Below, in pieces: positions 18,898-45,539 of a stretch of 64,000 nt of DNA (position 1 is its first letter; every line of letters begins with the position of its first letter). Source of the DNA: Catenovulum maritimum. GTDB lineage: Bacteria; Pseudomonadota; Gammaproteobacteria; Enterobacterales; Alteromonadaceae. Under the pieces are notes generated by a model. The model searched no databases. It was not told the DNA's origin and was given only the letters and a program-made list of their open reading frames with translations. The stretch lies in the NCBI RefSeq assembly GCF_001050375.1, contig NZ_KQ130499.1, positions 1 to 64,000 of the forward strand. The letters run 5' to 3'. Position numbers and translations under genes: made by a program.

Positions 18898-21561
18898 TTA
18901 AGCAACCGCTGCTGGACAATGTGATTTAATCAATCCAGATAAGTCAGTTTTACATGAACCACAATTAGTACCACACTGTAATCGCTCACCTAACTTTTCA
19001 ACCGTGTCATCACCATAATCAACGATAGCTTCTATGATTTGCTTTTCGCCTACTTGGAAACAGCTACAAATTTGGCGGCCTTTAGCGACTTCAGGGGTTG
19101 GGATTCCTGCAACTAACGCTTTAATTTCAGCTCTATCAAAGGTTTCTAAGTTATACATTTCAGATAACCAAGTCATGTCTTCGGTAAACGGAGTTGCTTG
19201 AATATAACAAACAAACTCTAAACCAGATTCGCTATAACAAAATACTTTAAATGAATTATCTGAGTTATTTTCAACTCGAATCCACTCACCATTAGCGTTA
19301 GCTCTTTGTTGGCACCAATCTAACCAATCTGTCACTTCACCTGTACCAGCAAAGCTTAATTGATGTCCAGCACTATTTGGTGCCTTAACCCAGTATTCTG
19401 TATCAGCAAAAACAGCATGTTTACTATATGAAATAGCATAAAAATCAGCTTGATAAGCTTCTATTTTGACCGCAGCATGTTTTAATTCTGGCTGACCTGA
19501 AATCGGATCAACTGCTGGTGCATATAACACATTAATATTTGAACGAGATGCAAATTGTTTAGTCCAGTGCATAGGTGCAAACAACTCACCTTTACGCTGA
19601 CCTGAATCAATTTTAACTTTTAATAAAGTGTCACCAAACGCTGAACTAATCTTAGCAATTTGGTTTTCTTGAAGCTGATACAAGTTCGCATCATCAGGGT
19701 GCATAGCAACAAAAGGTTCGCTAATATGCGCAGTTAATTTAGCCGCTTTACCTGTGCGAGTCATAGTATGCCACTGATCTCTAATTCGACCTGAATTGCA
19801 TACTAATGGATATTCTGCCGAGGTTAACTGCTTAGGAGCCTGCGCTGTCACGCTAATAAATTGGGCTTTGCCTGATGGCGTGAAAAATTTACCATCATCG
19901 AACATACGTGCTCTACCTTGCGGATAAGCTGCATTGACTGGCCATTGAATTGGACGGAATTTATCGTATTCAGCTTCTGATAAACCAACTAAACCACTGA
20001 TATCAAAATCACGCGTCCCATTGTTTTCAAATGCAGATAAACGTGCATGTTCGTCGAAGATTTGATAAGGGTGTTGATAATCAAAACCTTGCTCAAAGCC
20101 CATAGCTTTAGCGACTTCGCAAATAATTTGCCAATCATGCTTAGCTTGACCTGATGGCGGTAATAAACCACGTTGACGTGAAATACGACGCTCTGAATTC
20201 GTCACTGTACCATTTTTTTCAGACCAACCGGTTGCTGGTAAGCGTACATCAGCCCAAGCCGAAGTATCGGTATTTTCATTGCAGTCTGAAACCACAACGA
20301 GTGGGCAATTTTTTAATGCATCGGCAACTGAATTACCATTCGGTAAACTAACTGCTGGGTTAGTTGCCATAATCCAAACGGCCTTAATGTCACCATTTTG
20401 GATTTTTTCAAACATATCCACTGCTTTAGCGCCCATCTCTGTAGAGATAGTTGGCGACTGCCAAAAACGTTGCACCAAATCAGTGTGTTGTGGATTTTGA
20501 ATATCCATATGTGCAGCTAGCATATTTGCTAAACCACCCACTTCACGACCACCCATAGCGTTTGGCTGGCCAGTAATAGAGAAAGGTCCCGATCCAACTT
20601 TACCTATCTTACCTGTCGCTAAGTGACAGTTAATAATAGCGTTACATTTATCAGTTCCTTGGCTGGATTGATTTACGCCCATGCAATAAAAAGTAATTGC
20701 AGAAGGACTATTTACAAATAAAGCGAAATAACGCGCCAAGTCATCAACATCGACATCACATATTGCTGCAGTTTGTTCTAAACTTGCTTGCTCAACACTT
20801 GCTAAACAAGCATCAAAACCTTCAGTAAACTGCGAGATGTAATCTGTATCTAGTGCTTGGTTATTCGCAATATAATGTAATAAACCATTAAACAACGCGA
20901 CGTCAGTGCCGGGTTTAATGGCTAAATGAATATCAGCCAACTCTGTGGTTGCACTCTTACGAGGATCAACCACAACAACTTGTAAATTTGGGTTTAATTT
21001 TTTAGCTCGCTCCATACGCTGGAACAACACTGGATGTGTCCAAGCTGCATTAGAGCCAACTAATACTAATAAATCTGTATCTTCTAAATCTTCGTAATTA
21101 CATGGCACAGTATCTGAACCAAATGCACGCTTATAGCCTGCTACTGCAGACGACATACATAACCGAGAGTTAGTATCTATATTGGCCGCACCGATGTAAC
21201 CTTTCATCAGTTTATTGGCAACATAGTAGTCTTCTGTTAATAACTGGCCTGAAACATAAAACGCCACAGCTTGTGGGCCATGTTCATCAATAACCTGTTT
21301 AAAACCAGAAGCAACATGGCTAATAGCCTCATCCCAAGAAGCAGCCGAATCCCCTATCATAGGCTGCAGTAATCGCCCTGACACATCGTTTGTCTCTAAT
21401 ACAGATGAACCTTTAACGCATAGTCGACCGAAATTTGCGGGATGCTCAGAAGAACCATTGACTTGAGTTAGCGTCATAGAATCCATGTTTACATCGATTC
21501 CACATCCAACACCACAATAAGGACAAGTGGTTTGTTTTAATTTTACTGCTGTATTCTTCAT
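18898..21561 (-). CDS. nasA: Assimilatory nitrate reductase, catalytic subunit
   Basis: Cytoplasmic molybdopterin enzyme reducing nitrate to nitrite. The 887-residue protein has an N-terminal [4Fe-4S] site (Cys13, Cys16, Cys20, Cys48 in CPYCGVGC and RLCVKGS). The likely Mo ligand is Cys135 in NSRLCMSSAV. A molybdopterin-dinucleotide-binding domain includes NSGRIRDQWHTMTRTG, and a C-terminal BFD-like [2Fe-2S] domain has CSCFQVG...CGTNCGSC (about 838-880). The extra Fe-S domain is typical of Klebsiella-type NasA, which takes electrons from NasC; a NasC-like gene lies at 41973. The upstream region has a possible sigma54 promoter. Confidence 0.96.
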   Translation of the reverse strand: MKNTAVKLKQTTCPYCGVGCGIDVNMDSMTLTQVNGSSEHPANFGRLCVKGSSVLETNDVSGRLLQPMIGDSAASWDEAISHVASGFKQVIDEHGPQAVAFYVSGQLLTEDYYVANKLMKGYIGAANIDTNSRLCMSSAVAGYKRAFGSDTVPCNYEDLEDTDLLVLVGSNAAWTHPVLFQRMERAKKLNPNLQVVVVDPRKSATTELADIHLAIKPGTDVALFNGLLHYIANNQALDTDYISQFTEGFDACLASVEQASLEQTAAICDVDVDDLARYFALFVNSPSAITFYCMGVNQSSQGTDKCNAIINCHLATGKIGKVGSGPFSITGQPNAMGGREVGGLANMLAAHMDIQNPQHTDLVQRFWQSPTISTEMGAKAVDMFEKIQNGDIKAVWIMATNPAVSLPNGNSVADALKNCPLVVVSDCNENTDTSAWADVRLPATGWSEKNGTVTNSERRISRQRGLLPPSGQAKHDWQIICEVAKAMGFEQGFDYQHPYQIFDEHARLSAFENNGTRDFDISGLVGLSEAEYDKFRPIQWPVNAAYPQGRARMFDDGKFFTPSGKAQFISVTAQAPKQLTSAEYPLVCNSGRIRDQWHTMTRTGKAAKLTAHISEPFVAMHPDDANLYQLQENQIAKISSAFGDTLLKVKIDSGQRKGELFAPMHWTKQFASRSNINVLYAPAVDPISGQPELKHAAVKIEAYQADFYAISYSKHAVFADTEYWVKAPNSAGHQLSFAGTGEVTDWLDWCQQRANANGEWIRVENNSDNSFKVFCYSESGLEFVCYIQATPFTEDMTWLSEMYNLETFDRAEIKALVAGIPTPEVAKGRQICSCFQVGEKQIIEAIVDYGDDTVEKLGERLQCGTNCGSCKTDLSGLIKSHCPAAVA

Positions 21562-22143: not shown

Positions 22144-22641
22144 ATGGCTCAATCTTCTAATGATAAAAGATGCAACGATGACTGCCCTATCAAACATACT
22201 TTATCTATGTTTCAAGGAAAATATTCCGCTTTAATTTTACGAGAATTACTTTCAGGAACCAAGCGCTTCTCTGTATTGTTAAAGAAAATTCCAGGAATCT
22301 CTTCTAAAACGTTAAATGAAAAACTTAAGCAATACACTCAATATGGTGTAATTACACGCCATGCCTATCCAGAAATTCCACCTAAAGTTGAATATTGCAT
22401 TACAGAAAAAGGTAAACAACTTGAACAGGTGATCATTGAGCTTCATAAATTTGGCTTAGACCAAGTTAATCAAAAAAGTACCCAAGCAAAATCTCGACGC
22501 CGCATGAGTGACTTTGATACCGAAGCCAAAGGGGCAAAACGATTTGGTCGTCGGGCTGTCGATATTAAAGCCAGAGCGGCCAAAAAAATTGGCCGTCGTA
22601 ATTCAGATATAGATATCTCAAACTTGTACTCAAACGAGTAA
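22144..22641 (+). CDS. HxlR-family winged-helix regulator with basic RR-repeat tail
   Basis: The 165-residue protein has an HxlR DNA-binding domain at residues 10-100 (CPIKHTLSMFQGKYSALILREL, then FSVLLKKIPGISSKTLNEKLK). There are two cysteines just before the domain (RCNDDCP); HxlR proteins often sense thiol-reactive signals through one such cysteine. After residue 115 comes an unusual tail with three copies of an R-R-x-x-D pattern (RRRMSDFD, GRRAVDIK, GRRNSDID). AAAGGA precedes the start. It overlaps the convergent hisC-like gene by 12 nt. Target genes are unknown; divergent nasA is a candidate. Confidence 0.8.
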   Translation: MAQSSNDKRCNDDCPIKHTLSMFQGKYSALILRELLSGTKRFSVLLKKIPGISSKTLNEKLKQYTQYGVITRHAYPEIPPKVEYCITEKGKQLEQVIIELHKFGLDQVNQKSTQAKSRRRMSDFDTEAKGAKRFGRRAVDIKARAAKKIGRRNSDIDISNLYSNE

Positions 22642-23742
22642 GCTTGATTCCTTAGTTAGATTTAACTTTATAATACAATTACCTAATGCCTTTAAAAAAG
22701 CTGTGTTGTCCGCTTCACTGCCAATCGTGACACGGATATACTCAGGCATTTGGTAACCTGTTAAATCTGCAACTAATATATTCTGATTTTTGAGCTGCTG
22801 GGTCACTTTAGTTGCCAAGCCAACCTCAACACAGATGAAGTTTGTCTCTGATTCAATGTAATTGAGATCAAGCTCAGCTAAACCTAAGCTCAATTGCTGA
22901 TACCCCAAATGATTCTTAGCTACCGTCTGTTTTAAAAACTCTCTTTCTCGCATTGCTTCACTTGCTGCAATTAAGCCTAATCGATTTAAATTAAAGGGTT
23001 GGCGAACTCGATTAAGTACCTCTGCAACTTCTGGATGCGAGACTGAATAACCAACTCTAAACCCAGCCAAACCATAAGCTTTAGAAAAAGTCCTAACCAA
23101 AATCAAATTAGGGTAACTATTTAATAATCTAACGCTATCAATTAGTTGAACCGTTTCACTATATTCAAAATAAGCTTCATCGAGTACAAGTATGATGTCC
23201 TTTGGTAAAAGGTCTAAAAATTGTAGTAAGTTACTTTTCCCGACGACAGTCCCAGTTGGATTATTTGGATTGGCGACAAAAATAAGCTTAGTTTTGTCGG
23301 TTATACTTTGGTACATGGCTTTTAAATCATGCTGCCAGCCGTTAGCTTTCACCATAACGGGCTTAGCACCCGAAATTTTAGCTAATAGCGGATAAGCGGC
23401 AAAAGCATACTGGGAAAACATAATCTCATCACCTTGTTGGCAAAAAGCTCGTGTAATCAAATCAAGCACATCATTTGAGCCGTTACCTAAAGTGATCTGA
23501 GCCTTATCGACCCAAAGCATATTTGATAAAGTTTTCTTAAAGTGATCTGCTGTTGCGTCAGGATATAAGTAGGCACTTTCTATTCCATTCGCAATAGCAG
23601 CTTTAACTTTTGGGCTAATACCAAAACGGCTCTCATTGGCATCTAATTTAATCATTTGCCTAATATAGCTAGATTCAGGCGAAGCTGGATAAGCTTTAAC
23701 ATTGACTAACCATGGGTTTATTACTTTTTCTATCATTGTCAT
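22630..23742 (-). CDS. hisC: Histidinol-phosphate aminotransferase-like enzyme
   Basis: PLP class I/II aminotransferase, 370 residues. Seen features are ANESRFG near the N-terminus, GNGSNDVLDLI, ANPNNPTG, DEAYFEY, and the PLP lysine in RTFSKAYGLAGFRVGY. HisC converts imidazole-acetol phosphate and glutamate to histidinol phosphate. The gene is not in a his operon: it sits 12 nt behind a DUF2269-SnoaL membrane gene, so it could be a second aminotransferase with another substrate (aromatic or related amino acids). GGAG lies 7 nt before ATG 23742. Confidence 0.85.
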   Translation of the reverse strand: MTMIEKVINPWLVNVKAYPASPESSYIRQMIKLDANESRFGISPKVKAAIANGIESAYLYPDATADHFKKTLSNMLWVDKAQITLGNGSNDVLDLITRAFCQQGDEIMFSQYAFAAYPLLAKISGAKPVMVKANGWQHDLKAMYQSITDKTKLIFVANPNNPTGTVVGKSNLLQFLDLLPKDIILVLDEAYFEYSETVQLIDSVRLLNSYPNLILVRTFSKAYGLAGFRVGYSVSHPEVAEVLNRVRQPFNLNRLGLIAASEAMREREFLKQTVAKNHLGYQQLSLGLAELDLNYIESETNFICVEVGLATKVTQQLKNQNILVADLTGYQMPEYIRVTIGSEADNTAFLKALGNCIIKLNLTKESSLLV

Positions 23743-23754
23743 TGTGTTACTCCG

Positions 23755-24669
23755 TTAACTTAAGCTAACTCTTTGTACGTTGGGTAAATCATTTAAATCA
23801 AAATCGATATCCACTTGGCAAATTAACCCCTGACTTCGCTGCATGATATTGCTACCTCTCAATGCTGGCATTATTTGACCATTTTGAGTTTTGCCTATTG
23901 CGCACCATAAAATTTCGACTCTGTCACTATCGCCATCAACCTGCTCTGGACATATCTTGATCTCATCAAACTGATCTCCCAGCTTTTGGAAAAACTGCTC
24001 TATATTTAAGATTCCCTTAATTTCAGATGTTGCGAAAGGATCATTAAAAACAGCGTCATCTCGAAACAACTTAAGTAAATCAGTCATTTTCTCGGCATTC
24101 AGTAATGAAAAATAATATTCAGCAAATTCAGCTGCTGACATCTGCTTAATTCGGTGCCATTTTTTTAATTTAACAACTAAATTAACCAGATTAAGTAAAA
24201 GTATGATTGCGCAACTTATACCAACAAGCTTAAGGGTTTGGCTCGCTTCAGGTTTTGTCACCATCAAAAAATAAACCAGTCCAATTAAAGCGATATTTGA
24301 ATAACCAATTGCAGGTACTCGCCGCATTAAGCTCCTTTTTCCTTTACGCCCTACGACTAAAAAATAAAAAATTAGCCACGAGTTAATAAAGATGACCAGT
24401 GTGATAACTTCAGCCCAAAAGAGCCAGCTGGGATTCAACCAAGGTTGTAGAAGATAAAATTGATACTGGTTAGCGAGTAAAAGGCCAGTCGTGATCGTGG
24501 TTATTAAGCCGCCCATAATAAAGACACATTTTAAAACAAAGACTGTATCTATAATGCCAAGAACTGTATGCAGATGATCGGCTCGATTCGCTCGATTTCC
24601 CCAGAAAGGTAAGGTCGCAGCAGTACCTAACCACAATGCGGAGAAAAGTACGTGTATGTATAGCAACAT
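23755..24669 (-). CDS. DUF2269-like membrane domain fused to SnoaL/NTF2-like domain
   Basis: The 304-residue protein has four or five membrane segments in the first 170 residues (LLYIHVLFSALWLGTAATL, then others near 40, 75, 115 and 140), resembling DUF2269 integral-membrane proteins. A cytoplasmic domain of about 120 residues follows (SAAEFAEYYFSLLNAEKM...FRDDAVFNDPFA), a SnoaL/ketosteroid-isomerase-type alpha+beta cone. No function is known for such a fusion. The ATG at 24669 has AGGA 8 nt upstream; the longer frame starts at a TTG and was rejected. It is the first gene of a two-gene unit with the HisC-like enzyme. Confidence 0.72.
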   Translation of the reverse strand: MLLYIHVLFSALWLGTAATLPFWGNRANRADHLHTVLGIIDTVFVLKCVFIMGGLITTITTGLLLANQYQFYLLQPWLNPSWLFWAEVITLVIFINSWLIFYFLVVGRKGKRSLMRRVPAIGYSNIALIGLVYFLMVTKPEASQTLKLVGISCAIILLLNLVNLVVKLKKWHRIKQMSAAEFAEYYFSLLNAEKMTDLLKLFRDDAVFNDPFATSEIKGILNIEQFFQKLGDQFDEIKICPEQVDGDSDRVEILWCAIGKTQNGQIMPALRGSNIMQRSQGLICQVDIDFDLNDLPNVQRVSLS

Positions 24670-25078
24670 TGTAAGTTTCCTAATTAAACACAAGTTTAGT
24701 GGACTTAGGCTGACCTAAATTCCACCCACTAATGTCGTCGCTATATTTAATAAATACGCCAATAACACTAAAGATGCAAAACCTTTTTACAAAAAAATTT
24801 ATCTCCAGATATGAAGAAAATAAATTTAATTTTTTTTCTTCTAGCAAAGTATTAGCAGAGCAATTTCTTTACTTTTTTCCACTATCGACACTATTTGAAA
24901 CCATATTGTCAGCTTAAAAATGGGCTCATATACTGGATTGAGTCGTCGCTGACCAACAAACAAAATTTATACATTGAGTTCAACATTTAGTTATTTATGG
25001 CTGTGTTTTATCAAGCTTTATTCACTAGCTTATGGACTCAAGTAATACAAAGAAATCGTATTTACAGAGAAATGAAAA
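24670..25078. other. 409-bp divergent region before DUF2269 gene and sulfur cluster
   Basis: AT-rich spacer between the leftward DUF2269-SnoaL gene and the rightward tusA-like gene. It has an imperfect inverted repeat at 24699-24725 (GTGGACTTAGG / CCTAAATTCCAC, loop CTGA), just upstream of the DUF2269 start, that could be an operator or leader hairpin. A 61-codon open frame at 24732-24917 is low-complexity and not believed. No clear promoter for the sulfur cluster could be fixed. Confidence 0.45.
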
Positions 25079-25303
25079 ATGGAAATTGACCAGTTTATCG
25101 ATGCTGTAGGCCTTGCTTGTCCTATGCCCATATTAAAATTTAAGCAAAACACAAAAACGCTTGCGACTGGTTCTATCGTAAAAGTAACAACAAGCGATCC
25201 AGACTCGGTGAATGATTTTAATGCTTATAGCAAACATAAAGGCTACCGGATCATAGATAGATCGGTTGGCAGTAATTTATTTGAGTTCATCATTCAAATA
25301 TAG
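25079..25303 (+). CDS. TusA-family sulfur-carrier protein
   Basis: The 74-residue protein begins with the TusA pattern VGLACPMPILKFKQ, where Cys14 would carry a persulfide. The rest matches the two-layer fold (GSIVKVTTSDPDSVNDF). TusA proteins pass sulfur from a cysteine desulfurase to acceptors such as TusD or MoaD-like partners. Here it is followed 13 nt later by a desulfurase-like gene, so the pair likely works as a private sulfur relay and not as the housekeeping TusA. First gene of the cluster. Confidence 0.88.
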   Translation: MEIDQFIDAVGLACPMPILKFKQNTKTLATGSIVKVTTSDPDSVNDFNAYSKHKGYRIIDRSVGSNLFEFIIQI

Positions 25304-25316
25304 CTAAGGATCAATC

Positions 25317-26801
25317 ATGCAATCAGGTAAAGCTTTACTCAATCAAATCAGCCAAGCGTTTTATGGTGCAGATATAAAATACCAAACAATAACTGGCAAA
25401 AGCATAAAGCGGATTTATTTGGATTCGGCTGCTAGCTGCCTAATGTTAAAACCAGCGTTTTTAGCTAGCACTCAATATTTACCTCATTATGCCAATACCC
25501 ATAGCGAAATACATAACTCTGCGATTGTTTCAAATCAAATGTACGATTGGGCAAAGCAGACAGTATTAGCTTTTGTTAAAGCCGATCCGAAGCAATATAG
25601 CTGTGTGTTTATTGGCAGTGGCGCAACAGGTGGGATCAATAGATGTGCCCAAATTATGGCTAATATACGCCCGAATAAAACAACAGCACTTGTCTCTTTA
25701 ATGGAGCATCATTCTAACGATCTGCCTCATAGAAAATACAACAAAAAAGTAGAACATATTGAATGTGAAGATAGTGGCATAAACCTAGGTTCGGTTTGTA
25801 TTAAAGACCTAGAACAAAAACTGATTAAGCACCAAGGCCAAGTTAACTATGTTGCCATTACAGGCGCAAGTAATGTCACAGGTATTTTAAACCCGATAAA
25901 AAAAATTAGCGAAATCAGCCACCAGCACAATGCTCTAGTGATAGTGGATGGCTCTCAAATGTTAGCTCACGCCCCTATATCACTGACACGATCGCAAAAT
26001 GATCCGACCAGTGCGGATATTGACGCTTTAGTTTTTTCTGGACATAAAATGTACGCTCCGGGCTCACCTGGCGTGTTAATTATCAAAACAAAATTACTTG
26101 AGCAAAGCCAACCTAACCAAATGGGAGGCGGCATAGTTTCGCAGGTATCTAAAGGTCATTTCGATCTCATAGACGATTTACAAGCCAGAGAAGAAGCAGG
26201 CACGCCAAATATTTTTGGTGCTGTCAATTTAGCAATGTCACTAAATGTGTTGAATAGAATCACTATGACTGAAATCGCTCACCACGAGAGCGAATTATTA
26301 AAATATCTGTTTACTGAGCTAAGTAAAATCGATGGCCTTAGTATTTACGCCAACCAAGATTTAGCCAAATATCCAAGAACTGCTACTTTCTCTTTTAACT
26401 TAGCCGGTATAGATCATGCGTTGCTAGCCGCCATTTTAAATGACTATTTTAATATTGCGGTCAGGAACGAATGCTTCTGCGCTCACCCTTATGTCAGAGA
26501 GCTGATTATAGATCAACTTTGGGAACTCGATCCTGATTTACCAAGCGAACAAATCGAAGCTAAAAAAGGCATGGTTCGAGCAAGTTTCGGCTTAAATAAC
26601 ACTATTACAGATGCAATCGAGTTAGTTAATGCGCTCACTCAGATAGTTCAAAACCCAACAAAATATACAGCAGAGTACGAATTAACCCAGTCCCAAGGTT
26701 ACCAACATAAAACTAAGCAAACCGACTGGCGAAGCTTATTTTGTCCAGATCAAATGCTAAACCAATTACTAAGTCAACAAACAGACCCACAACATTCTTA
26801 A
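25317..26801 (+). CDS. SufS/CsdA-like class V cysteine desulfurase
   Basis: The 494-residue PLP enzyme has the core IVDGSQMLAHAP (Asp211, PLP ring) and SGHKMYAPGSPG (Lys244, Schiff base). A C-terminal active loop VRNECFCAHPYV puts Cys388 where SufS-type enzymes carry the persulfide cysteine. The loop is longer and holds a second cysteine (386), and the chain has about 90 more residues than typical SufS, mostly after the catalytic domain. It probably removes sulfur from cysteine and loads the TusA-like protein. It could instead act on another cysteine-like substrate. It is 35 nt before the adenylating enzyme. Confidence 0.85.
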   Translation: MQSGKALLNQISQAFYGADIKYQTITGKSIKRIYLDSAASCLMLKPAFLASTQYLPHYANTHSEIHNSAIVSNQMYDWAKQTVLAFVKADPKQYSCVFIGSGATGGINRCAQIMANIRPNKTTALVSLMEHHSNDLPHRKYNKKVEHIECEDSGINLGSVCIKDLEQKLIKHQGQVNYVAITGASNVTGILNPIKKISEISHQHNALVIVDGSQMLAHAPISLTRSQNDPTSADIDALVFSGHKMYAPGSPGVLIIKTKLLEQSQPNQMGGGIVSQVSKGHFDLIDDLQAREEAGTPNIFGAVNLAMSLNVLNRITMTEIAHHESELLKYLFTELSKIDGLSIYANQDLAKYPRTATFSFNLAGIDHALLAAILNDYFNIAVRNECFCAHPYVRELIIDQLWELDPDLPSEQIEAKKGMVRASFGLNNTITDAIELVNALTQIVQNPTKYTAEYELTQSQGYQHKTKQTDWRSLFCPDQMLNQLLSQQTDPQHS

Positions 26802-26836
26802 AACAAGACACTCAGCAATCAACAGAGGATCATACA

Positions 26837-28153
26837 ATGACAAGCCTAGCTACACCCGAAAAACACATTGAAGCTGTCGATCATAATGAGCTGATCAATG
26901 ATTTATACCCTATCATAGATCACCCTCTCTATGGCACAGTCACTAGTTTTAAACAAACGCCTTACTTAATGCCAGCCCAACTCGCTGACTTTACCAACGA
27001 TACTGATTTTTCTGCAGAAGCAACTAACTTAGAAATATGCCCTGCTTGCTTTTTCAATACTTCAGGTACAACCAACCGAAGTAAAAAAATACCTTTTTCT
27101 GATGCGGACTTAGAAAGACAAAAAATACACGAAAAAATTGCACTCAGTAAATTAGGCATGGGTAAAGGCGACGGCGTTATGTCATTAGGCGCACCATTAC
27201 CAAGCATATCAGGCTGGGCTATTGTCAATGGCAGTGAAGCAACAGGCGCAAGAGCCATTAATTCATCACAGATTGACTATGATGAAATATTTGAAAAAGG
27301 CCAAGCGGATCAAGTTACCTTTGTCATAGGCACACCTTTAGTTGTGAAAGAAATAGGCAAAGCCATTGAAAGTGAATTTGGGCCACTAACAAAGGTGTTA
27401 CCAAATTTAACTACAGCCATTATTTTTGGTGATGTATTACCCGATGCTTTAAGAGCTGAATTAAAAGAATTATGGGGCTTTAAAAACATCTACAGCTTAT
27501 ACGGCACAGTAGAAGCAGACGTAGTCGCGACAGAGTGTCCAAATAAACTGGGTGAAATGGAGCTCATGTCTGAGCGCCTATTATTTGAATTTTTACCTGA
27601 ATTTGAACTCGCCAAAGAGCGCCAAAATAATTTATATACCGCACAAGCCAAGCCAATTGAACAAGTACAAAACGGTGAATTTGGTGAAATATTAATTAGC
27701 GATTTAAGCCGCGATACCTTGCCACTCATACGTTACCGAATTGGCGACATCATCAAGGTAAACAGAGCAACTGGCATACACAATGCCGAAAAGCCGAGTA
27801 TTTCCGTTTTAGGCCGCAGTAAAAACACTGTGCTATTAGACGACATTGCGCTGTATGAAATGCAACTAGATAACGCAATTAAATCTTGGCTAGGAGATGA
27901 AATAGTTGAGTGGCAATTAGAGCAAACGTCAAATGCCAAACCACAGCAATATCAACTTAGAGTTCAATTAAAAAGCAAATCAATTGAAGCCAAACATCAA
28001 CAAAGCTTTTATCCACTTTTAGCGAGGCAAAGACCTGAACTAGCCATGCTGAATTTAAAGCAACATATCAAAATAGAACAAGTAAAAGCTTTTAGCCAGA
28101 TTGAAGTAAAAGGCGATACCAAAGCGCAACGCATCATACTGTTAACTAAATAA
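26837..28153 (+). CDS. PaaK-like adenylate-forming enzyme
   Basis: Acyl-AMP-forming enzyme of 438 residues resembling phenylacetate-CoA ligase. Motifs in order: P-loop TSGTTNRSKKIPF (75-87), IIFGDVLP, YGTVEAD (222-228), and LIRYRIGD (297-304) with the hinge after it. A C-terminal lobe of about 110 residues follows. It should activate a carboxylate with ATP; whether the acceptor is CoA or a sulfur from TusA is not known. The longer frame overlaps the desulfurase gene, but AGAGGA 9 nt before ATG 26837 fixes this start. The flavoprotein gene follows 12 nt later. Confidence 0.83.
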   Translation: MTSLATPEKHIEAVDHNELINDLYPIIDHPLYGTVTSFKQTPYLMPAQLADFTNDTDFSAEATNLEICPACFFNTSGTTNRSKKIPFSDADLERQKIHEKIALSKLGMGKGDGVMSLGAPLPSISGWAIVNGSEATGARAINSSQIDYDEIFEKGQADQVTFVIGTPLVVKEIGKAIESEFGPLTKVLPNLTTAIIFGDVLPDALRAELKELWGFKNIYSLYGTVEADVVATECPNKLGEMELMSERLLFEFLPEFELAKERQNNLYTAQAKPIEQVQNGEFGEILISDLSRDTLPLIRYRIGDIIKVNRATGIHNAEKPSISVLGRSKNTVLLDDIALYEMQLDNAIKSWLGDEIVEWQLEQTSNAKPQQYQLRVQLKSKSIEAKHQQSFYPLLARQRPELAMLNLKQHIKIEQVKAFSQIEVKGDTKAQRIILLTK

Positions 28154-28165
28154 GAGATAAAAATC

Positions 28166-29743
28166 ATGAATCAATTTACTCAACATAAGTATGTCATTTT
28201 AGGTGGTGGTCCTGGGGGATTACAACTAGCTTATTACCTAGAACAAGCTAACCAAGACTATATTGTGCTAGATAGTGCTGATATTGCAGGCAATACATTT
28301 GCTCACTTTCCACGTCACAGAACCTTAATATCTATCAATAAACGATTTACTGGTAGTACAGATCCTGAATTTAATATGCGTCATGATTGGAACTCATTAC
28401 TATGTGACGATGACCAATTTCGTTTTAAAAATTACGACAAGCAATTCTTTCCTCATGCTGATAGCATGGTGGAATATATGGCTGATTTTGTGTCGCGCTT
28501 CCAACTAAAAATGCGATACAACACAAGTGTAAAATTGATCGATAAACAAAGTGATGAATATTTAATAACAACAGAAACTAACGAGCAAATTCGTTGTAAA
28601 GTACTCGTCGTTGCCACAGGCGTATCTAAACCAAACATCCCAAATATTGAAGGTATAGAACACAGTGAACAATACCAAGATATGAGCTTGGATTTAACGG
28701 ACTACGAAGACAAACGCGTGCTAATAATCGGCAAAAAGAACTCAGCATTTGAAACCGCAGATCACCTAACATCAGCTGCCGCTATGATACATTTAGCCAG
28801 TCCTAATTCGATAAAAATGGCGTGGAAAACCCATTATGTCGGAGACTTACGAGCAATAAATAATAATGTATTAGATACCTACCAGCTCAAAACTCAAAAT
28901 GCGGTATTAGATGCAGATATTGTCAGTATTAAGAAAAAATCTGGTCAACTTGAAGTTACTTTTAAATATCATCATGCTGAAGATGAAATCGAAACCATTA
29001 TTTATGACAAAGTACTATGCTGTGCTGGGTTTAAATTTGATGCTTCTATCTATTCAGAGCAAGTTAAACCAGAATTAGCCCACATGGGAAAATACCCAGC
29101 GTTAAAGCCAAATTTCGAGTCAGTGAATAATCCAAATTTATATGTGGCTGGTACTTTAACCCACTCATTAGACTACCGAAAAGCAACATCTGGTTTTATT
29201 CATGGCTTTAGATATAACTCAAAAGCACTTGCTGAAATATTACTTGAAAAGTTCTCTAGCAAACCGATCCCGAACGTGAAAGTTTTAGCTCAAGCAGAAA
29301 GTATTACCGAACATATGCTAGACAGAGTTAATCACTCAGGTGGTTTATGGCAGCAACCTGGTTTTATCGCTGATGCAGCCGTGTTGGAAGATGGCTTTTT
29401 CAACTATAGCAAAGAGTTTCCATTAGATTATTTAGTCCAGCGCCATGCAGCTAAAAACGTCAACTTATTTACTTTAACTCTAGAGTACGGTGCCCCGATT
29501 ATGGGAGACCCATTTGCAGTTGAGCGTATTCATCGAGAAAACACCGAAAAATCAGAAGCGAGTCAGTTTTTACACCCAGTTGTTCGTCACTATGTAAACG
29601 GAGAACTGCAAGCCAGACACGACATCATTGAAGATTTAGAAGCGAAATGGGTTGAACCAGAACATTACCAACCTTTAATAGCCTTCTTCAACCAGTGTTT
29701 AACGGCTAGTAAAAAAACCGAAAAACAGGCTGAAATGGCTTAG
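28166..29743 (+). CDS. FAD/NAD(P)-dependent oxidoreductase, FMO/FOXRED2-like
   Basis: The 525-residue flavoprotein has an FAD site ILGGGPGGLQLAYYLEQA (residues 11-28) and DSADIAGNTFAHFPRHRTL. A second nucleotide-binding fold reads RVLIIGKKNSAFETADHL, where the usual glycine-rich GxGxS is degenerate (GKKNSA). ATGVSKPNIPNIEG and the late YVAGTLTHSLDYRKATSGFIHGFRYN segments are typical of flavin monooxygenase-like proteins. It probably oxidises the cluster product, perhaps on sulfur or nitrogen. It is tightly linked to the ligase upstream; 74 nt with a stem-loop separate it from the exporter. Confidence 0.8.
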   Translation: MNQFTQHKYVILGGGPGGLQLAYYLEQANQDYIVLDSADIAGNTFAHFPRHRTLISINKRFTGSTDPEFNMRHDWNSLLCDDDQFRFKNYDKQFFPHADSMVEYMADFVSRFQLKMRYNTSVKLIDKQSDEYLITTETNEQIRCKVLVVATGVSKPNIPNIEGIEHSEQYQDMSLDLTDYEDKRVLIIGKKNSAFETADHLTSAAAMIHLASPNSIKMAWKTHYVGDLRAINNNVLDTYQLKTQNAVLDADIVSIKKKSGQLEVTFKYHHAEDEIETIIYDKVLCCAGFKFDASIYSEQVKPELAHMGKYPALKPNFESVNNPNLYVAGTLTHSLDYRKATSGFIHGFRYNSKALAEILLEKFSSKPIPNVKVLAQAESITEHMLDRVNHSGGLWQQPGFIADAAVLEDGFFNYSKEFPLDYLVQRHAAKNVNLFTLTLEYGAPIMGDPFAVERIHRENTEKSEASQFLHPVVRHYVNGELQARHDIIEDLEAKWVEPEHYQPLIAFFNQCLTASKKTEKQAEMA

Positions 29744-29778
29744 TTAACCTTAACTCTAGATAAGAAATTAGCTAGGAA

Positions 29779-29809
29779 AACCGCAAGATGAAACTTTCGT
29801 CTTGCGGTT
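29779..29809 (+). promoter_or_regulatory. Stem-loop before the TauE-like gene
   Basis: Perfect 10-bp stem AACCGCAAGA / TCTTGCGGTT with an 11-nt loop, 8 nt before ATG 29818. No U-run follows. An upstream ATG (29788) lies within it, which argues for the downstream start. Could be an mRNA-stability or translation-control element. Confidence 0.6.
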
Positions 29810-29817
29810 CTAAAAAC

Positions 29818-30795
29818 ATGAAAATTTCACCCAATAAAAATCTGACATTCCGCCAATATTTGTATCCAAGTCTAATTTTAATACTCTATACATCTTGGCT
29901 GAGTTATATGTTTATAAGCCAAAGTTGGCACTACTTTAACGATTTTTGGCCTATGTCTCTGACTATGGCACTAGGCTCTTTTGTCGCTGGCTCAACCCCA
30001 ACCGGAGGCGCAGCGGTTGCCTTTCCAGTATTCACCAAGGTATTAGACATATCCGCGGCAGATGCACGTACTTTCGGATTTATGATCCAGTCAATTGGTA
30101 TGACCTCAGCTGCTCTATATATTTGGCACAGAAAACTGCCCGTACTAAAACCCGTTATATTGTTTGCAAGTTTAGGCGGAATTATAGGTAACCTAATTGC
30201 ACAAAACGGCATTGAAATACCCGCAGGCATAGCCAAAATAACCTTTACCAGTTTACTCTGTATGTTTGCTCTTGCTTTGCTTTACTGCACTTGCTCGACA
30301 AAGCCAAAATCACAATATTTAAAATTGCATGTGACAAAAAAGTCGGCTCGGTTAGAATTCTTTATTGCAGGGGTTTTCGGCGGCTTTATCGCAGAAATGA
30401 CAGGTTCCGGCGTCGATATTATCGTATTTATTTTGCTAACCCTAAGTTATCGAGTCTCAGAAAAAATCAGTATACCGACCACAGTGATCTGTATGGCGAT
30501 CAACTCAATATACGGCTTTATAACCCATGCTTTTTATATCCAAGATACAGCACCTATGTTTGGTCCTTGGTTAGTTAGCATCCCCATAGTGGCTATTGGC
30601 GCACCAATTGGCGCTTGGCTTGTCACTCAAATATCCAACAAAAGTATCATCTGCTTAATTTGCTTTTTAGTTGCCTTAGACTTAATTAGTAGCCTAGCAA
30701 TATTGAACTTTAACACCAGCATGTACCAAACAATTTGCTTGAGTTGCCTAGTATGTGGCAGCACATTTTATTGCTTAATAAAAAGAACAAAATAA
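29818..30795 (+). CDS. TauE/SafE-family transporter
   Basis: Membrane protein of about 325 residues with eight or so hydrophobic segments and the paired family motifs: the first repeat has GSFVAGSTPTGGAAVAFPV, the second FGGFIAEMTGSGVDI. TauE/SafE proteins move sulfite, sulfoacetate and other organosulfur anions. Position directly behind the sulfur-carrier, desulfurase, ligase and flavoprotein genes suggests export of a sulfur compound or of sulfite by-product. Start moved 10 codons down from 29788 because of the stem-loop. Confidence 0.82.
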   Translation: MKISPNKNLTFRQYLYPSLILILYTSWLSYMFISQSWHYFNDFWPMSLTMALGSFVAGSTPTGGAAVAFPVFTKVLDISAADARTFGFMIQSIGMTSAALYIWHRKLPVLKPVILFASLGGIIGNLIAQNGIEIPAGIAKITFTSLLCMFALALLYCTCSTKPKSQYLKLHVTKKSARLEFFIAGVFGGFIAEMTGSGVDIIVFILLTLSYRVSEKISIPTTVICMAINSIYGFITHAFYIQDTAPMFGPWLVSIPIVAIGAPIGAWLVTQISNKSIICLICFLVALDLISSLAILNFNTSMYQTICLSCLVCGSTFYCLIKRTK

Positions 30796-30948
30796 ATTTT
30801 GTCGATGCAGGCCAGAGCATCTAACAATGCTTTACTTTAAGAAACTAACTAACCATTTTTCGCCTTCTTGTGCACTGTTTTCAGCACTTTATAATCGAAT
30901 CATCCCAAATTCGATTAAAGATATTTGATAAATAATATGGAGTCAGCA

Positions 30949-31752
30949 ATGTTTTCAATAAAGCCTATTATCGTATTGTCATGTATAGCAAGCTTTAGTT
31001 TTAATCTACATGCTCATGCGCCAAGGCCTCACCCACATCATCAAAAACCTAGCGAAGAAATACCAGAAGTCACTTATAAAGTGGAAGATTCAACCGCTGA
31101 AGTACAAGTCACACCAAGTGGCGAAACCTTTATGCCAATTAGCAATGAAAGACATGCTCAGCACCAAGCTGCAGGACATGGTTACTATCCGATAATAAGT
31201 GGCTTAGTACCAAGCCTATTCACACCACCCGCTATGGATAATGTACAAGACTACATAATTAAAAAAGACGAAATGGTCGTCATTAATCCGGCTGAAAATG
31301 AATATATTCACATAATGGAAGGTAAACGCCACGGCTTCGAAAATTTAACTGTCGCGATAACCAATACCCATACAGGCAATGGCGCACCTTTACATAGCCA
31401 TGTAGGTGAAGAAGCCCACCTGCTTTTAAAAGGTAAAATGCTTTATCACCTAGATGGTGAAGAAGTTGTAGTGGAAGTGCCATATATAGTTAACATACCT
31501 TCGATGGTGCCACATGCTTTCATTAATATAGATGATGAACCCGCAGAATTAATTGGCATTTTTCCATCAAATGAATGGGAATATGACATCTTAGACGGCC
31601 CAGTCTTCACTGAAGGTGTCGACGAATTAATCGAAGAAAACGCGGCCGAGCAAGACAAATGGAAAAACTGGCATAAGCCTAGTCACGCTAAAAAGCGATT
31701 AGACTACTATAAAAAGCATCACACGCATGGCGGTGAAGCACACCACCATTAG
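30949..31752 (+). CDS. Secreted histidine-rich cupin protein
   Basis: The 267-residue precursor has a signal peptide ending at FSFNLHAHA, then a His/Pro-rich segment (PRPHPHHQK). A single cupin domain covers about residues 130-205: NGAPLHSHVGEEAHLLLKG is motif 1, with metal ligands His, His, Glu and probably His in PSMVPHAFIN of motif 2. The tail is again His-rich (KKHHTHGGEAHHH). It is likely a periplasmic metal-binding cupin, perhaps a dioxygenase or isomerase. GGAG 6 nt before ATG 30949 decides the start over two upstream ATGs. It lies 153 nt behind the exporter and may belong to the same locus. Confidence 0.75.
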   Translation: MFSIKPIIVLSCIASFSFNLHAHAPRPHPHHQKPSEEIPEVTYKVEDSTAEVQVTPSGETFMPISNERHAQHQAAGHGYYPIISGLVPSLFTPPAMDNVQDYIIKKDEMVVINPAENEYIHIMEGKRHGFENLTVAITNTHTGNGAPLHSHVGEEAHLLLKGKMLYHLDGEEVVVEVPYIVNIPSMVPHAFINIDDEPAELIGIFPSNEWEYDILDGPVFTEGVDELIEENAAEQDKWKNWHKPSHAKKRLDYYKKHHTHGGEAHHH

Positions 31753-31849: not shown

Positions 31850-32320
31850 CTATAAATTAAGCTCAGATAAACTTGGAAAATCATCTGGCCTAACCGCGCC
31901 TTGCCAAGTGAACAGGCGTTCAGACGCTTCAATTTCAACATCATTGATTGAAGCATGGCGTTTCGCCATTAAACCATTTTCATCGAATTCCCAATTCTCA
32001 TTACCATAAGCCCTCAACCATTGACCCTGGCTATTCTGATACTCATAAGCAAAGCGCACCGCTATTTTATTATCCGTATAGGCCCAAAGCTCTTTGACTA
32101 ATTTGTAATTCAGCTCGTTTTGCCATTTTTGAGTTAAAAATTGAACAATTTCGGCTCGGCCATTTATAAAGCTAGAACGGTTACGCCACTGGCTATCTTG
32201 GCTATAAGCGAACGATACTTTTTCAGGATCTTGATTGTTCCAACCGTTTTCTGCCATGCGAACTTTAGTTTTAGCACTTTCAAGATCAAAAGGCGGTAAA
32301 GGTGGGCGTGGTGTATCCAT
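31850..32320 (-). CDS. DUF1348 (NTF2-like) protein
   Basis: The 156-residue protein matches the DUF1348 nuclear-transport-factor-2-like family: [57 protein letters not shown] and [13 protein letters not shown]. Members are small cone-shaped proteins without a proven activity. Start ATG 32320 has GGAG 9 nt upstream; 20 further codons upstream lack support. It is divergent from a TetR gene, and two operator-like palindromes overlap its promoter, so TetR most likely represses it. Confidence 0.88.
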
Positions 32321-32370
32321 AATAAATAACTCCAAAATAGATTTTATAATTAGAAACTCAACCGAGCAAA

Positions 32371-32388
32371 GTAGACACATCTGTCTAC
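32371..32388. promoter_or_regulatory. TetR operator candidate 1
   Basis: Perfect palindrome GTAGACA-CATC-TGTCTAC, 7-4-7, within the divergent TetR / DUF1348 promoter region. Confidence 0.75.
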
Positions 32389-32398
32389 CCGTTGTGTT

Positions 32399-32427
32399 AG
32401 AGTAGACAAGTTTGTATACTTTGACAA
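32399..32427 (-). promoter_or_regulatory. Sigma70 promoter for DUF1348 gene
   Basis: Minus strand TTGTCA (32427-32422), 17-nt spacer, TACTCT (32404-32399). Overlap with operator 2 fits repression. Confidence 0.55.
32402..32419. promoter_or_regulatory. TetR operator candidate 2
   Basis: GTAGACA-AGTT-TGTATAC, the same half-site with one mismatch, 31 bp (about three helical turns) from operator 1. It overlaps the -10 and spacer of the DUF1348 promoter. Confidence 0.72.
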
Positions 32428-32459
32428 TCCTTTTTTCATAACGAATTTCAACTAAGCAT

Positions 32460-33020
32460 ATGGATAAAAAAAGCTTACTAATAGAAACAAGCTTAAAGCT
32501 ATTCTACCAAGACGGTATTCATGCTGTTGGCATTAATCATATTCTAGCGACATCAGGAGTTGCCAAAAAAACCCTATACAACCACTTCGAAACAAAGGAA
32601 GCCTTAATCCAAGCTTGTGTCATTGAAAGAGATAAACGCTTTATGAACTGGCTAAGCCAAGCTTGCCAGCATGCTCATTCAACAAGTCAATTTATCGAGT
32701 TTTTTTTCAATGCACTAGATGATTGGATAAACAATAGAGTACAAGCCTTAGGTGAGTTTAGAGGCTGCTTTTTTGTGAATACCAGCGCTGAATACAGTGA
32801 TCTTGATAACCCAATTTTTCAACAATGCTTGCAGCATAAACTCAAGGTAAAAACTTATATAGAAAACAGTCTCAGTGCATTTACTAATGACATAGGTGAA
32901 TGTCAGCAATTAACTGATCAACTCATTTTGTTAAAGGAAGGCGTGATCAACAGCGCTTTTATTATGCAAGATAAACAAGCTGCACTAAAAGCGATGAAAA
33001 TACTAAAGCTCTCAGTATAA
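32460..33020 (+). CDS. TetR/AcrR-family repressor
   Basis: The 186-residue protein has the TetR N-terminal helix-turn-helix ([44 protein letters not shown]). The C-terminal ligand domain includes [13 protein letters not shown], as in TetR proteins with a TetR_C subdomain that often pair with NTF2-like or quinone-responsive genes. It begins 40 bp from the second operator and probably regulates itself and the divergent DUF1348 gene. Inducer unknown. Confidence 0.88.
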
Positions 33021-34772: not shown

Positions 34773-36620
34773 CTAAGCCACATATTCAAGCCGGTTTATG
34801 CCATATTTTTTAATTTTAGAGGCAAGTGTCGTAGGCTTTAAACCGAGCAGTTCTGCTGCGCCATTTTCGCCATAAATTTTGCCTAAACTTTGTTTTAGCG
34901 CATTTTCTATATTGGCCTTTTCCATTAATTTTTGCTGCTGCGCGCTGATTAGTTCGCCATCATTTTTAGGTTTTAGTTTTACTTTGTTTAGCGAAGTTTC
35001 GCTTGCTAAAAAATCAAATGAGAGCTTACCGCCTTTGGCTAAAATAACCTGCCTTTCAATAATGTTTTCAAGTTCACGTATATTCCCCGGCCAGTTGTAA
35101 TTTTGTAAGTGCTGCATTTGCGCTATGCTAATTTGCGGTTGTGGCTGGTTAAAACGTGTCGCAACTTTAGCAATAAAATGCTTCACCAAAAGCGGAATGT
35201 CATCTCGACGCTCACGCAGCGGTGGCGAATTTATCGGAAATACATTCAAGCGGAAATACAAATCCTCTCTAAATTTATTTTGCTCAACTAATTTAATTAA
35301 ATCTTGGTTAGTCGCAGCTATCACTCGCACATCCACTTTACGGGTTTTAGATTCGCCAACGCGCTCAAATTGCTGCTCTTGCAATACGCGTAATAATTTA
35401 CTCTGCAATTGCAGCGGAATTTCGCCTACTTCATCGAGAAAAATAGTCGCGCCATCTGCCAATTCAAACCGCCCTAACCTATCACTTATTGCGCCAGAGA
35501 AAGCACCTTTTACATGGCCAAAAAATTCGCTTTCGAATAATTCAGCCGGTATCGCTGCACAATTGACTCTAATCAAGGGCCTGGCTTTGCGCCGACTCGT
35601 TTCATGTAAAGCGCGAGCAATCAACTCTTTACCTGTACCTGATTCACCTATAATCAATACATTGGCGTCAGTTTCACCCACCAACTCAATTTGATTTATC
35701 ATGCGCTGCACTACCGCACTTTGGCCAATAATTTGATGATGGTTAAAATCAGCGTTAATTTCTTCCAGCAGGTATGCGTTTTCCAACTCGAGCCGACTTT
35801 TTAGTGCATCTACTTCAGCTAGTGCAGTTAACAGCTTAGCTTGCGTTTTTTTACGTTCTGTCACATCTCTAAATATAACCACGGCACCAATCAGCATGCC
35901 GTTATCCGTCACAGGTGTACTGGTATACTCTACCGATATGGCTTTACCTTGCTTAGACCAAAACACCTCATTGTCGACAAAATGCACTGTACCGTCGTGA
36001 AAAGCTGCGTAAATTGGGCAATCTTGGCTATGATAATGGCGCCCATCTTGATGCGAATGATGAATCACATCATGAATTTTCTTGCCGGTTAATTCACTTC
36101 TTTTCCAACCAAGGATCGCTTCTGCGGCATCATTGACAAAAGTTGTCTTGCCTTGTGCATCAACGCCATAAATTCCATCTCCAACTGCAGATAATAAGAG
36201 TTGATTATGTCTTTCTATTTCTTCAAATATAGTTTCGTTTTTTTGCCAATGCGACAAACCAGATTGAAAACTCAGATCAACTGAGGATTGATAACGCTTA
36301 GCAAATACCACGCTCGCATCTTCACAGCTCAACAGTATATTTGGCGCTATGTACTTTGCAGTCACCTCCAAATGCAATGATTCTCCTTTCCGTTCGGTAA
36401 ACAGCTCACTCGTCCATGCTTGCTGCTTCAGCATAACTTCTTGACTAAAGTTATAAAGTTGCCCTATGCAAGGCTGAAATAATTGACTAACCGCTAATTT
36501 TTTAAAAGCATGAGCGGTTAAACCAAACAAGTTTTCCGCTTGTTGATTAACCTCTAATACCTGATTGTTAATTGGGTCAATCAGTATTAAAGCAGTTGGC
36601 GCATACTGAAATAAATCCAT
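34773..36620 (-). CDS. Sigma54-dependent transcriptional activator with two PAS domains
   Basis: The 615-residue bacterial enhancer-binding protein begins with one PAS domain (about 1-110) and has a second PAS with a PAC segment (about 140-260, NQLLLSAVGDGIYGVDAQGKT). A short coiled coil follows, then an AAA+ domain with Walker A GESGTGKE, loop 1 GAFSGA, Walker B TIFLDEVGEI and NWPGNIRELENII. The C-terminal Fis-type helix-turn-helix is FhlA-like (AAELLGLKPTTLASKIKKYGI). It is divergent from cynS with palindromic sites and a -24/-12 promoter in between, so it most likely activates cynS and the FNT channel. Start ATG 36620 was chosen over 36641 for domain fit. Confidence 0.9.
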   Translation of the reverse strand: MDLFQYAPTALILIDPINNQVLEVNQQAENLFGLTAHAFKKLAVSQLFQPCIGQLYNFSQEVMLKQQAWTSELFTERKGESLHLEVTAKYIAPNILLSCEDASVVFAKRYQSSVDLSFQSGLSHWQKNETIFEEIERHNQLLLSAVGDGIYGVDAQGKTTFVNDAAEAILGWKRSELTGKKIHDVIHHSHQDGRHYHSQDCPIYAAFHDGTVHFVDNEVFWSKQGKAISVEYTSTPVTDNGMLIGAVVIFRDVTERKKTQAKLLTALAEVDALKSRLELENAYLLEEINADFNHHQIIGQSAVVQRMINQIELVGETDANVLIIGESGTGKELIARALHETSRRKARPLIRVNCAAIPAELFESEFFGHVKGAFSGAISDRLGRFELADGATIFLDEVGEIPLQLQSKLLRVLQEQQFERVGESKTRKVDVRVIAATNQDLIKLVEQNKFREDLYFRLNVFPINSPPLRERRDDIPLLVKHFIAKVATRFNQPQPQISIAQMQHLQNYNWPGNIRELENIIERQVILAKGGKLSFDFLASETSLNKVKLKPKNDGELISAQQQKLMEKANIENALKQSLGKIYGENGAAELLGLKPTTLASKIKKYGINRLEYVA

Positions 36621-36723
36621 CTCTATAAACCTATATTGCAAGTCGCATCTAAACAGATTGGTACAAAGCTCACACCAACCTGTTTCCAGTAAACATTTAG
36701 ATATACAAAAGCTAGGCCAACAA

Positions 36724-36776
36724 AACGAAATTTCGTTACCAACTCAACGAAATATAGTTACCAACGATAAATCGTT
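36724..36776. promoter_or_regulatory. Upstream activator sites (three 14-bp palindromes)
   Basis: AACGAAATTTCGTT (36724-36737, perfect 14-bp palindrome), AACGAAATATAGTT (36746-36759, one good half) and AACGATAAATCGTT (36763-36776, 6-2-6 palindrome); the first two are each followed by ACC. They lie 66-118 bp upstream of the cynS promoter, a normal enhancer distance, and close to the activator gene. Confidence 0.7.
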
Positions 36777-36841
36777 CTACAGAAATAATAACAAAAAAAA
36801 TAATGTCAATTAAAAACAACAACTTAAAATTATTTAATAGA

Positions 36842-36858
36842 TTGGCACACATATCGCA
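36842..36858 (+). promoter_or_regulatory. Sigma54 promoter for cynS
   Basis: TTGGCAC-ACATA-TCGCA keeps the GG and GC pairs at exactly 12 bp and a perfect TTGGCAC at -24. Expected start of transcription near 36869. Confidence 0.75.
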
Positions 36859-37006
36859 ATACTAGTGTTGAGATCATGATATCGGAATCATGAGATTAAT
36901 TCTGATTGGATGACTAACAAGTTAACTAAGGATAGTGCGCACAAACGGTGCAAAAAATGTGTAAAGAAATGGCTAAGATTTAACTTTTTATTTGGAGAAC
37001 CCAACT

Positions 37007-38487: not shown

Positions 38488-38520
38488 TAATAAAAATTCA
38501 CATTAGATGAATTACTAACT

Positions 38521-45517: not shown

Positions 45518-45539
45518 TATCTTTAAGTCTTCTCAGCGC

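Follow-up and report, generated by a model that had tools for sequence, protein, structure and literature searches.

Catenovulum maritimum carries, within a 64,000-nt stretch of its genome (contig NZ_KQ130499.1, positions 1 to 64,000; below, the window), a compact row of same-strand genes encoding a TusA-type sulfur carrier, a desulfurase-like enzyme (CSD), an acyl-adenylate-forming ligase (LIG), a flavoprotein (FOX) and a TauE/SafE transporter, followed by a cupin. This locus raises the question of whether such proteins together constitute a pathway that incorporates sulfur into a small molecule, as had been proposed from inspection of the sequence (the original prediction). We found that the genes are part of a nine-gene block present in a second species, C. 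agarivorans YM01, and we describe here their families, active-site residues, co-occurrence and order, as well as a conserved promoter region with a repeated 9-mer. The block may be a biosynthetic cluster that includes its own source of sulfur, in which a cysteine-to-TusA relay would deliver sulfur to an adenylated acid and the resulting sulfur metabolite would be exported; we rate the chances of this interpretation as about even.

Structure and conservation of the nine-gene block

The block (positions 22144-31752 of the window; Table 1) comprises the five genes named above together with those of an HxlR-type regulator, a second HisC-like aminotransferase (HisC2), a DUF2269-SnoaL membrane protein and the cupin. 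The original prediction thus stands as regards the five genes, their order, their common strand and the gaps of 13, 35 and 12 nt, and falls short as regards the extent of the unit, which it limited to these genes and the cupin, overlooking HisC2, DUF2269-SnoaL and HxlR. The figure of 74 nt given there for the fourth gap presupposes the ATG at 29818 as the start codon of TauE; measured from the longest open reading frame (ORF), the gap is 44 nt.

We searched the YM01 locus (also found in NZ_JH767536.1) with eleven window proteins, of which HxlR and TetR are the outermost. Nine of them have counterparts there, encoded in identical order and orientation, with protein identities of 47-74%: HxlR 59%, HisC2 47%, DUF2269-SnoaL 62%, TusA 54%, LIG 74%, FOX 71%, TauE 50% and cupin 55%, CSD being aligned in two pieces (57% and 67%) either side of a run of N. 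In YM01 the TusA-CSD and CSD-LIG gaps are 22 and 30 nt, and the cupin gene overlaps that of TauE by 4 nt (gap -4).

The two right-hand neighbours in the window (DUF1348 and TetR) have no match in the YM01 locus, nor do any of the seven window flank proteins (DUF1348, TetR, a glycosyl transferase, a NasA-like protein, a putative lipoprotein, a sigma-54 regulator and a cyanase) in the 19.9-kb YM01 stretch. In the reciprocal comparison, none of six YM01 flank proteins matched the window, bar one distant aminotransferase-to-aminotransferase match. Since the flanks do not match, the edges of the block are sharp and its genomic site differs between the two genomes; that nine genes recur in one order in another species, between non-matching flanks, is more than would be expected by chance. 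The G+C content of the block (0.382) equals that of the remaining window (0.383), and the composition therefore shows no sign of recent import; the block may nevertheless have moved horizontally.

Among eight Catenovulum genomes, only the window genome and YM01 contain matches to LIG, FOX, HisC2, DUF2269-SnoaL and the cupin (the counts of genomes given here and below include the window genome, and the genome-sample searches were made within its own phylum). The first refuting condition named with the prediction, lack of the gene set elsewhere, was therefore not borne out: the set recurs in a second species, together with its promoter region, though within a single genus. The block is a narrow yet real cluster.

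The divergent promoter region

The intergenic region between the divergent DUF2269-SnoaL and TusA genes can be aligned between both species. In each of them TusA is preceded by the promoter-like sequence TTGTCA-17-TATACT, and a 9-mer, GTCGTCGCT, begins 7 nt past the -10 hexamer. A promoter site in one genome is no evidence alone, because the scan of the sequence found fewer sites (21) than its shuffled versions (mean 33.1). The 64-kb window contains exactly two copies of GTCGTCGCT, a number reached in 0 of 100 shuffles, and the 19.9-kb YM01 stretch likewise contains exactly two, at matching places (0 of 200 shuffles). Both pairs are confined to the intergenic region, with one copy toward each divergent gene. 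These counts overstate the surprise, and the second species is no independent test, because the motif was chosen after the two-species alignment had been viewed. An 11-mer form with up to two mismatches was found 7 times in the window against 5.68 expected, i.e. not above chance, and upstream of the HxlR gene there is no exact copy of GTCGTCGCT.

The position of the repeat makes GTCGTCGCT a candidate operator, to which HxlR may bind. The two divergent operons would most simply be regarded as one regulon, and the cluster as a whole is probably a single regulon. When the window was scanned with Rfam at gathering thresholds in search of a riboswitch, one tRNA and nothing else was found.

TusA and the desulfurase

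The cluster TusA clearly exceeds the PF01206 cut-off (28.6 bits) and contains the CPxP motif in the form Cys14-Pro-Met-Pro, although it scores below the NCBIfam cut-off for the TusA equivalog (37.5 against 78). Its C-terminus reads FIIQI, without Gly-Gly. It is encoded by one of three TusA-like genes in the window genome and is 54% identical to the YM01 cluster copy, compared with at most 38% for the remaining matches within the genus.

Cys14 of TusA, as well as Lys244 and Cys388 of CSD, lie where they had been predicted. Every one of the 14 comparison rows extending over these positions retains Lys244, Cys388 and also Cys386, which defines a CxC motif. CSD aligns with solved desulfurases (best E 1.2e-45) and reaches 228 bits against the SufS model TIGR01979, whose cut-off is 475; judged by these scores, it is a SufS-like enzyme and not SufS. 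The window genome holds three further, more distant CSD matches.

At E 1e-50, CSD is matched in 12 of 369 genomes of the class, the window genome included, in a search that left out the other six Catenovulum genomes. Ten of the relatives are 43-50% identical and one is 35% identical. The ten have the common motif RN[EGQ]CFCAHPYV at the catalytic cysteine, and this subfamily of class V pyridoxal phosphate (PLP) enzymes is scattered across Gammaproteobacteria (loci L047-L056). A plasmid-borne relative, likewise 35% identical and with the same CxC motif, is located on pMaqPC1 of Methylobacterium aquaticum (L008:9055-10383), where its gene is flanked by those of a DUF4395 protein and a heavy-metal P-type ATPase within a metal-efflux region. 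From this distribution, CSD looks like a sporadic stand-alone enzyme that was recruited into the cluster. A role in anti-phage defence was also considered and rejected: among the nine proteins PADLOC matched CSD alone, with scores of about 100 bits (E 3e-29) for each of two desulfurase models, SspA and DndA, and no partner gene of an SspA or DndA system is present in the cluster.

The ligase and the flavoprotein

LIG weakly matches the structures of AjiA1 and PaaK. At E 1e-3 it is matched in three of 60 genomes, i.e. the window genome, YM01 and one genome with a 25% partial match, and at E 1e-10 in only one (the window genome) of 369 in the class sample. A scan of 84,980 species genomes with the LIG alignment, based on just two short peptide patterns, returned only YM01, and plasmids yielded a single weak partial match.

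FOX had been described as a flavoprotein of the flavin-containing monooxygenase (FMO) type. This assignment has to be revised: the FMO-like model gives 25.7 bits (cut-off 22), with no single stretch passing alone, far below the 167 bits obtained with Pyr_redox_3. We presume a likeness to the eukaryotic FOXRED2 family. FOX is matched in two of 60 genomes at E 1e-30 and, at E 1e-40, in one of 398 genomes of the phylum sample (the window genome). A relative from Nonomuraea gerenzanensis (46% identity over 95% of the length) is encoded between an AMP ligase and a P450, the three genes being consecutive on one strand (L013:9566-14897). This is a second case of a FOX-type flavoprotein adjoining an adenylating ligase. 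The Nonomuraea ligase has no tblastn match to LIG at E 1e-3, and no cluster gene besides FOX was matched in the 25-kb stretch. A sulfotransferase-domain ORF lies beside the ligase on the opposite strand; the region is unannotated in the record.

HisC2 and the remaining proteins

HisC2 scores as HisC, within a wider aminotransferase class that we take to include PatB. A second HisC copy was found in two of the eight Catenovulum genomes at E 1e-20, compared with all eight for the other HisC. HisC2 is only 29% identical to the other HisC of the window genome. Among plasmid-borne copies, to which the comparison was confined, it is 44% identical to one from Pseudomonas aeruginosa, whose gene is flanked by pheA and a prephenate dehydrogenase/EPSP synthase gene, and 39% identical to one from Priestia that belongs to a tyrosine-degradation set (hppD, fahA and homogentisate dioxygenase genes). 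Since HisC2 is nearer to these copies from aromatic neighbourhoods than to the HisC of its own genome, aromatic amino or oxo acids are indicated. On the P. aeruginosa plasmid, pPALO11 (L026), hisC is part of a run of core genes that resembles a chromosomal segment (serC, pheA, hisC, prephenate dehydrogenase/EPSP synthase, cmk, rpsA and neighbours).

The DUF2269-SnoaL protein consists of a DUF2269-like N-terminal part and a SnoaL-like C-terminal domain, with hydrophobic 19-mers at residues 1, 41, 90, 126 and 151. It is matched in two of 60 genomes (E 1e-5) and the cupin in two of 78 (E 1e-10); no plasmid homologues of either were found.

TauE is matched in 12 of 78 genomes at E 1e-15, only the YM01 protein being close, and a paralogue (33%) is encoded elsewhere in the window genome. 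The context of TauE proved uninformative as a guide to the substrate: the 12 fetched relatives are located in ordinary neighbourhoods, one of which is, by eye, shared by six Catenovulum ones. Two plasmid-borne relatives may be recorded. On the megaplasmid of Pseudoalteromonas sp. NC201 (L032:5355-8780), the gene of a TauE relative is divergent from that of a 763-aa protein, read by eye as a fusion of (i) a NifS-type desulfurase, (ii) a metallo-beta-lactamase (persulfide dioxygenase-like) and (iii) a rhodanese. On a plasmid of Serratia proteamaculans AGR_495 (L027:757-10478), a 37% relative lies among DUF1702, VCBS-repeat, RnfD-like, histidine N-methyltransferase and AarF genes, which we presume to resemble enediyne accessory genes.

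Table 1. Features of the nine-gene block in the window. Families were assigned with Pfam for eight cluster proteins and with NCBIfam for HisC2.
Feature	Position	Strand	Basis and remarks
HxlR-type regulator	22144..22641	+	PF01638 91.6 bits; 59% orthologue at same YM01 place; convergent with HisC2, 3' ends overlap by 12 nt
HisC2, aromatic-aminotransferase kind	22630..23742	-	TIGR01141 333 bits, above cut-off
DUF2269-SnoaL membrane protein	23755..24693	-	SnoaL_2 37.2 bits (above cut-off); DUF2269 27.9 bits (just under cut-off of 28)
GTCGTCGCT, candidate operator copy 1, DUF2269-SnoaL side	24734..24742	+	9-mer count
Promoter-like TTGTCA-17-TATACT before TusA	24906..24934	+	10/12 consensus matches; same hexamers and spacing in YM01
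GTCGTCGCT, candidate operator copy 2	24942..24950	+	7 nt after -10 hexamer in both species
TusA-type sulfur carrier, 74 aa, Cys14 in CPxP	25079..25303	+	PF01206 60.7 bits
CSD, SufS-like class V PLP enzyme, Lys244, Cys386-x-Cys388	25317..26801	+	PF00266 (Aminotran_5) 236.6 bits
LIG, PaaK-like acyl-adenylate-forming ligase	26837..28153 (ATG; longest ORF from TTG 26741)	+	AMP-binding 32.5 bits (cut-off 29.9)
FOX, FAD/NAD(P)-type flavoprotein	28166..29743	+	Pyr_redox_3 167 bits
TauE/SafE (TSUP) transporter	29788..30795 (longest ORF; ATG option 29818)	+	PF01925 67.6 bits
His-rich cupin, signal-like N-terminus read by eye	30925..31752	+	Cupin_2 49.7 bits

Proposed pathway

Incorporation of sulfur into a small molecule is the best single reading of the cluster. 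The arguments in its favour are mainly the nine-gene order, the co-occurrence in two of eight genomes, the additional TusA, the predicted active-site residues, the kinship of HisC2, the Nonomuraea relative of FOX, the promoter region and the PtmA3/PtmU4 precedent discussed below, which together point to such a function. The chemical steps, their order and the class of substrate set out here are those that we infer from the predicted activities. CSD would bind the sulfur of cysteine as a Cys388 persulfide, Cys386 possibly acting as a shuttle, and pass it to Cys14 of TusA, while LIG would activate a carboxylate as acyl-AMP. The TusA persulfide would then attack the acyl-AMP, and the acyl persulfide would be reduced to a thioacid or derivative, which TauE may export and which the cupin may bind or act on in the periplasm. 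HisC2 could make or consume an aromatic 2-oxo acid and FOX could oxidise the carbon skeleton or the sulfur; with the SnoaL protein, these two enzymes would be responsible for building or oxidising the skeleton. HxlR is proposed to control both divergent operons through the paired GTCGTCGCT sites. The product would appear to be a small, probably aromatic, acid carrying cysteine-derived sulfur.

Such a relay would copy the logic of TusA-dependent tRNA thiolation (IscS-TusA-MnmA), in which a desulfurase supplies a TusA persulfide that reacts with an adenylated acceptor. The cluster differs in having a SufS-like desulfurase in place of IscS and a PaaK-like ligase as the activating enzyme; the acceptor would therefore be a small carboxylic acid. 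It would also follow carrier-dependent thioacid formation, in which, as described for PtmA3/PtmU4, carboxylate activation is combined with carrier-bound sulfur (PMC6006322).

In its most specific form, the proposal amounts to a new route to thioacids or their derivatives, in which a dedicated CxC desulfurase loads TusA and an acyl-adenylate is thiolated directly on a PaaK-like ligase, so that a sulfur-bearing aromatic acid is made and exported under a single HxlR switch, without a CoA-transferase, a Gly-Gly thiocarboxylate carrier or a nonribosomal peptide synthetase/polyketide synthase (NRPS/PKS). In this full form we regard it as tentative, and more probably wrong than right.

Several observations weigh against sulfur incorporation. 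The conservation is one genus deep, and the FOX-TauE gap in YM01 (151 nt) is looser than in the window. The scores of LIG with the NCBIfam models of the DVU_1553 family (77 bits) and FlxY (56 bits) are far under the respective cut-offs, and K-N stands where the usual D of the GRxxD motif of such ligases would be expected. Structure prediction from two-row alignments gave mean pLDDT values of 39 (FOX) and 31 (LIG) and was unusable. Among the cluster proteins none was recognised as a dedicated sulfur-transfer enzyme, which leaves the last step without an enzyme unless LIG performs it. Moreover, in 11 fetched neighbourhoods of CSD relatives the other eight cluster proteins were unmatched at E 1e-3, an absence less secure in five of the 11, where a contig end lies within about 4 kb of the gene. 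As the ten relatives of 43-50% identity lack other cluster genes in these stretches, the link between desulfurase, TusA and ligase rests on two genomes, and the apparently stand-alone occurrence of CSD elsewhere weakens the argument from conservation.

Alternative explanations and comparison with known systems

The same distribution of CSD relatives, together with the 35% plasmid-borne one from a heavy-metal efflux region, would suit a pathway for an aromatic or acyl acid without incorporation of sulfur. HisC2, LIG and FOX would transform the acid in that case, and CSD and TusA would serve maintenance (e.g. Fe-S clusters or tRNA thiolation) or CSD would have another class V PLP activity. The score of CSD below the SufS cut-off and the Nonomuraea locus, where the FOX relative accompanies a ligase and a P450 with no other cluster gene in the 25-kb stretch, are in line with this view. 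However, in both species TusA, CSD and LIG lie directly next to each other, preceded by the conserved promoter region common to the two, and maintenance could be served by the two other TusA-like genes and the three distant CSD matches. We consider this explanation unlikely.

Disposal of sulfur is another function to be weighed: CSD and TusA would release the sulfur of cysteine in the form of sulfane sulfur, which would be oxidised to sulfite (by FOX or an enzyme of the host) and exported as such by TauE, the ligase and HisC2 handling the carbon. The divergent pair of NC201, as read by eye, is compatible with such a role, and in the sulfane-sulfur oxidation circuit of Streptomyces coelicolor, as reported, a TauE homologue whose gene is transcribed together with that of a persulfide dioxygenase is the presumed sulfite exporter (PMC7533328); a TauE-type transporter is thereby tied to sulfane sulfur. 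The cluster, however, carries a ligase and an aminotransferase instead of persulfide dioxygenase, rhodanese and CsoR, for none of which a match was found among its proteins (eight by Pfam, HisC2 by NCBIfam). The NC201-type fusion was unmatched at E 1e-5 in the 12 fetched loci of other TauE relatives, and the adenylating ligase and second aromatic aminotransferase would be left unexplained; sulfur disposal is thus, in our opinion, quite improbable.

The cassettes PtmA3/PtmU4 (of thioplatensimycin), QbsL/QbsK, OrfJ/OrfI (pdt) and YtkG/YtkF share with the cluster a carboxylate-activating AMP ligase and a protein sulfur carrier (PMC6006322), whereas the cluster has TusA in place of a Gly-Gly carrier and includes a desulfurase, a flavoprotein, an aminotransferase and a transporter. 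The absence of a CoA-transferase, noted originally for the cluster, holds genome-wide for the type III family: PF02515 was matched in neither the window genome nor YM01, an assembly gap aside, compared with five of 14 control genomes; the proposed relay would need no CoA-transferase. Despite the carboxylate activation adjoining a sulfur carrier, we reject as very remote the possibility that the cluster is a known cassette of this kind (PtmA3/PtmU4, QbsL/QbsK or pdt type), as no type III CoA-transferase is matched and TusA, the carrier of the cluster and the only one examined, ends in FIIQI and not in a ThiS/MoaD-like Gly-Gly.

When LIG was judged as an acyl-CoA synthetase, it was found to lie in the AMP-binding family, yet below every NCBIfam cut-off matched. 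Biosynthesis of tropodithietic acid resembles the proposed pathway in aromatic-acid activation, a flavoenzyme, a sulfur source and occurrence in marine bacteria; in the published account TdaE is homologous to acyl-CoA dehydrogenases and the sulfur is attributed to PatB and TdaB homologues (PMC8283759). It differs in that no acyl-CoA dehydrogenase was matched among the eight Pfam-scanned cluster proteins; paa and tda genes were not searched genome-wide. The gene combination thus differs from the known pathways compared, and the nine-gene set was not described in the literature searched, among the matches listed and with few subscription papers covered. The cluster is best filed as a variant of sulfur-carrier-dependent small-molecule biosynthesis.

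Genomic surroundings

In the window, the block is placed between a gene for a NasA-like molybdopterin oxidoreductase (below curated cut-offs) and cyanase, NirB-like and nitrate-transport genes, i.e. inside an apparent nitrate-assimilation region (18898-21561, with the NasA-like protein, on the left side, and 34773-46940). On its right, the block adjoins genes for a DUF1348 (SnoaL-like) protein and a TetR regulator (31850-33020); also on this side are genes for a sigma-54 regulator, a cyanase, a PP2C-kinase fusion (38579-40321), a NirB-like half and a nitrate ABC transporter. At the HxlR end of the YM01 block (L009:14390-16730) there follow genes for an AdoMet decarboxylase-domain protein, a DUF3802 protein and a class I/II aminotransferase, none of which was found beside the window block. 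The product of the last one is presumably a MalY/PatB-like protein.

Significance

Since the cluster is small and YM01, described as an agar-degrading strain (PMC4052312), has been cultured, a direct test by deletion and metabolomics is possible. If the proposed pathway is correct, the sulfur relay of tRNA thiolation would have been taken over by small-molecule biosynthesis, and the TusA-desulfurase-ligase signature could be used to mine genomes for thio-compounds that are missed by searches for CoA-transferases or Gly-Gly carriers.

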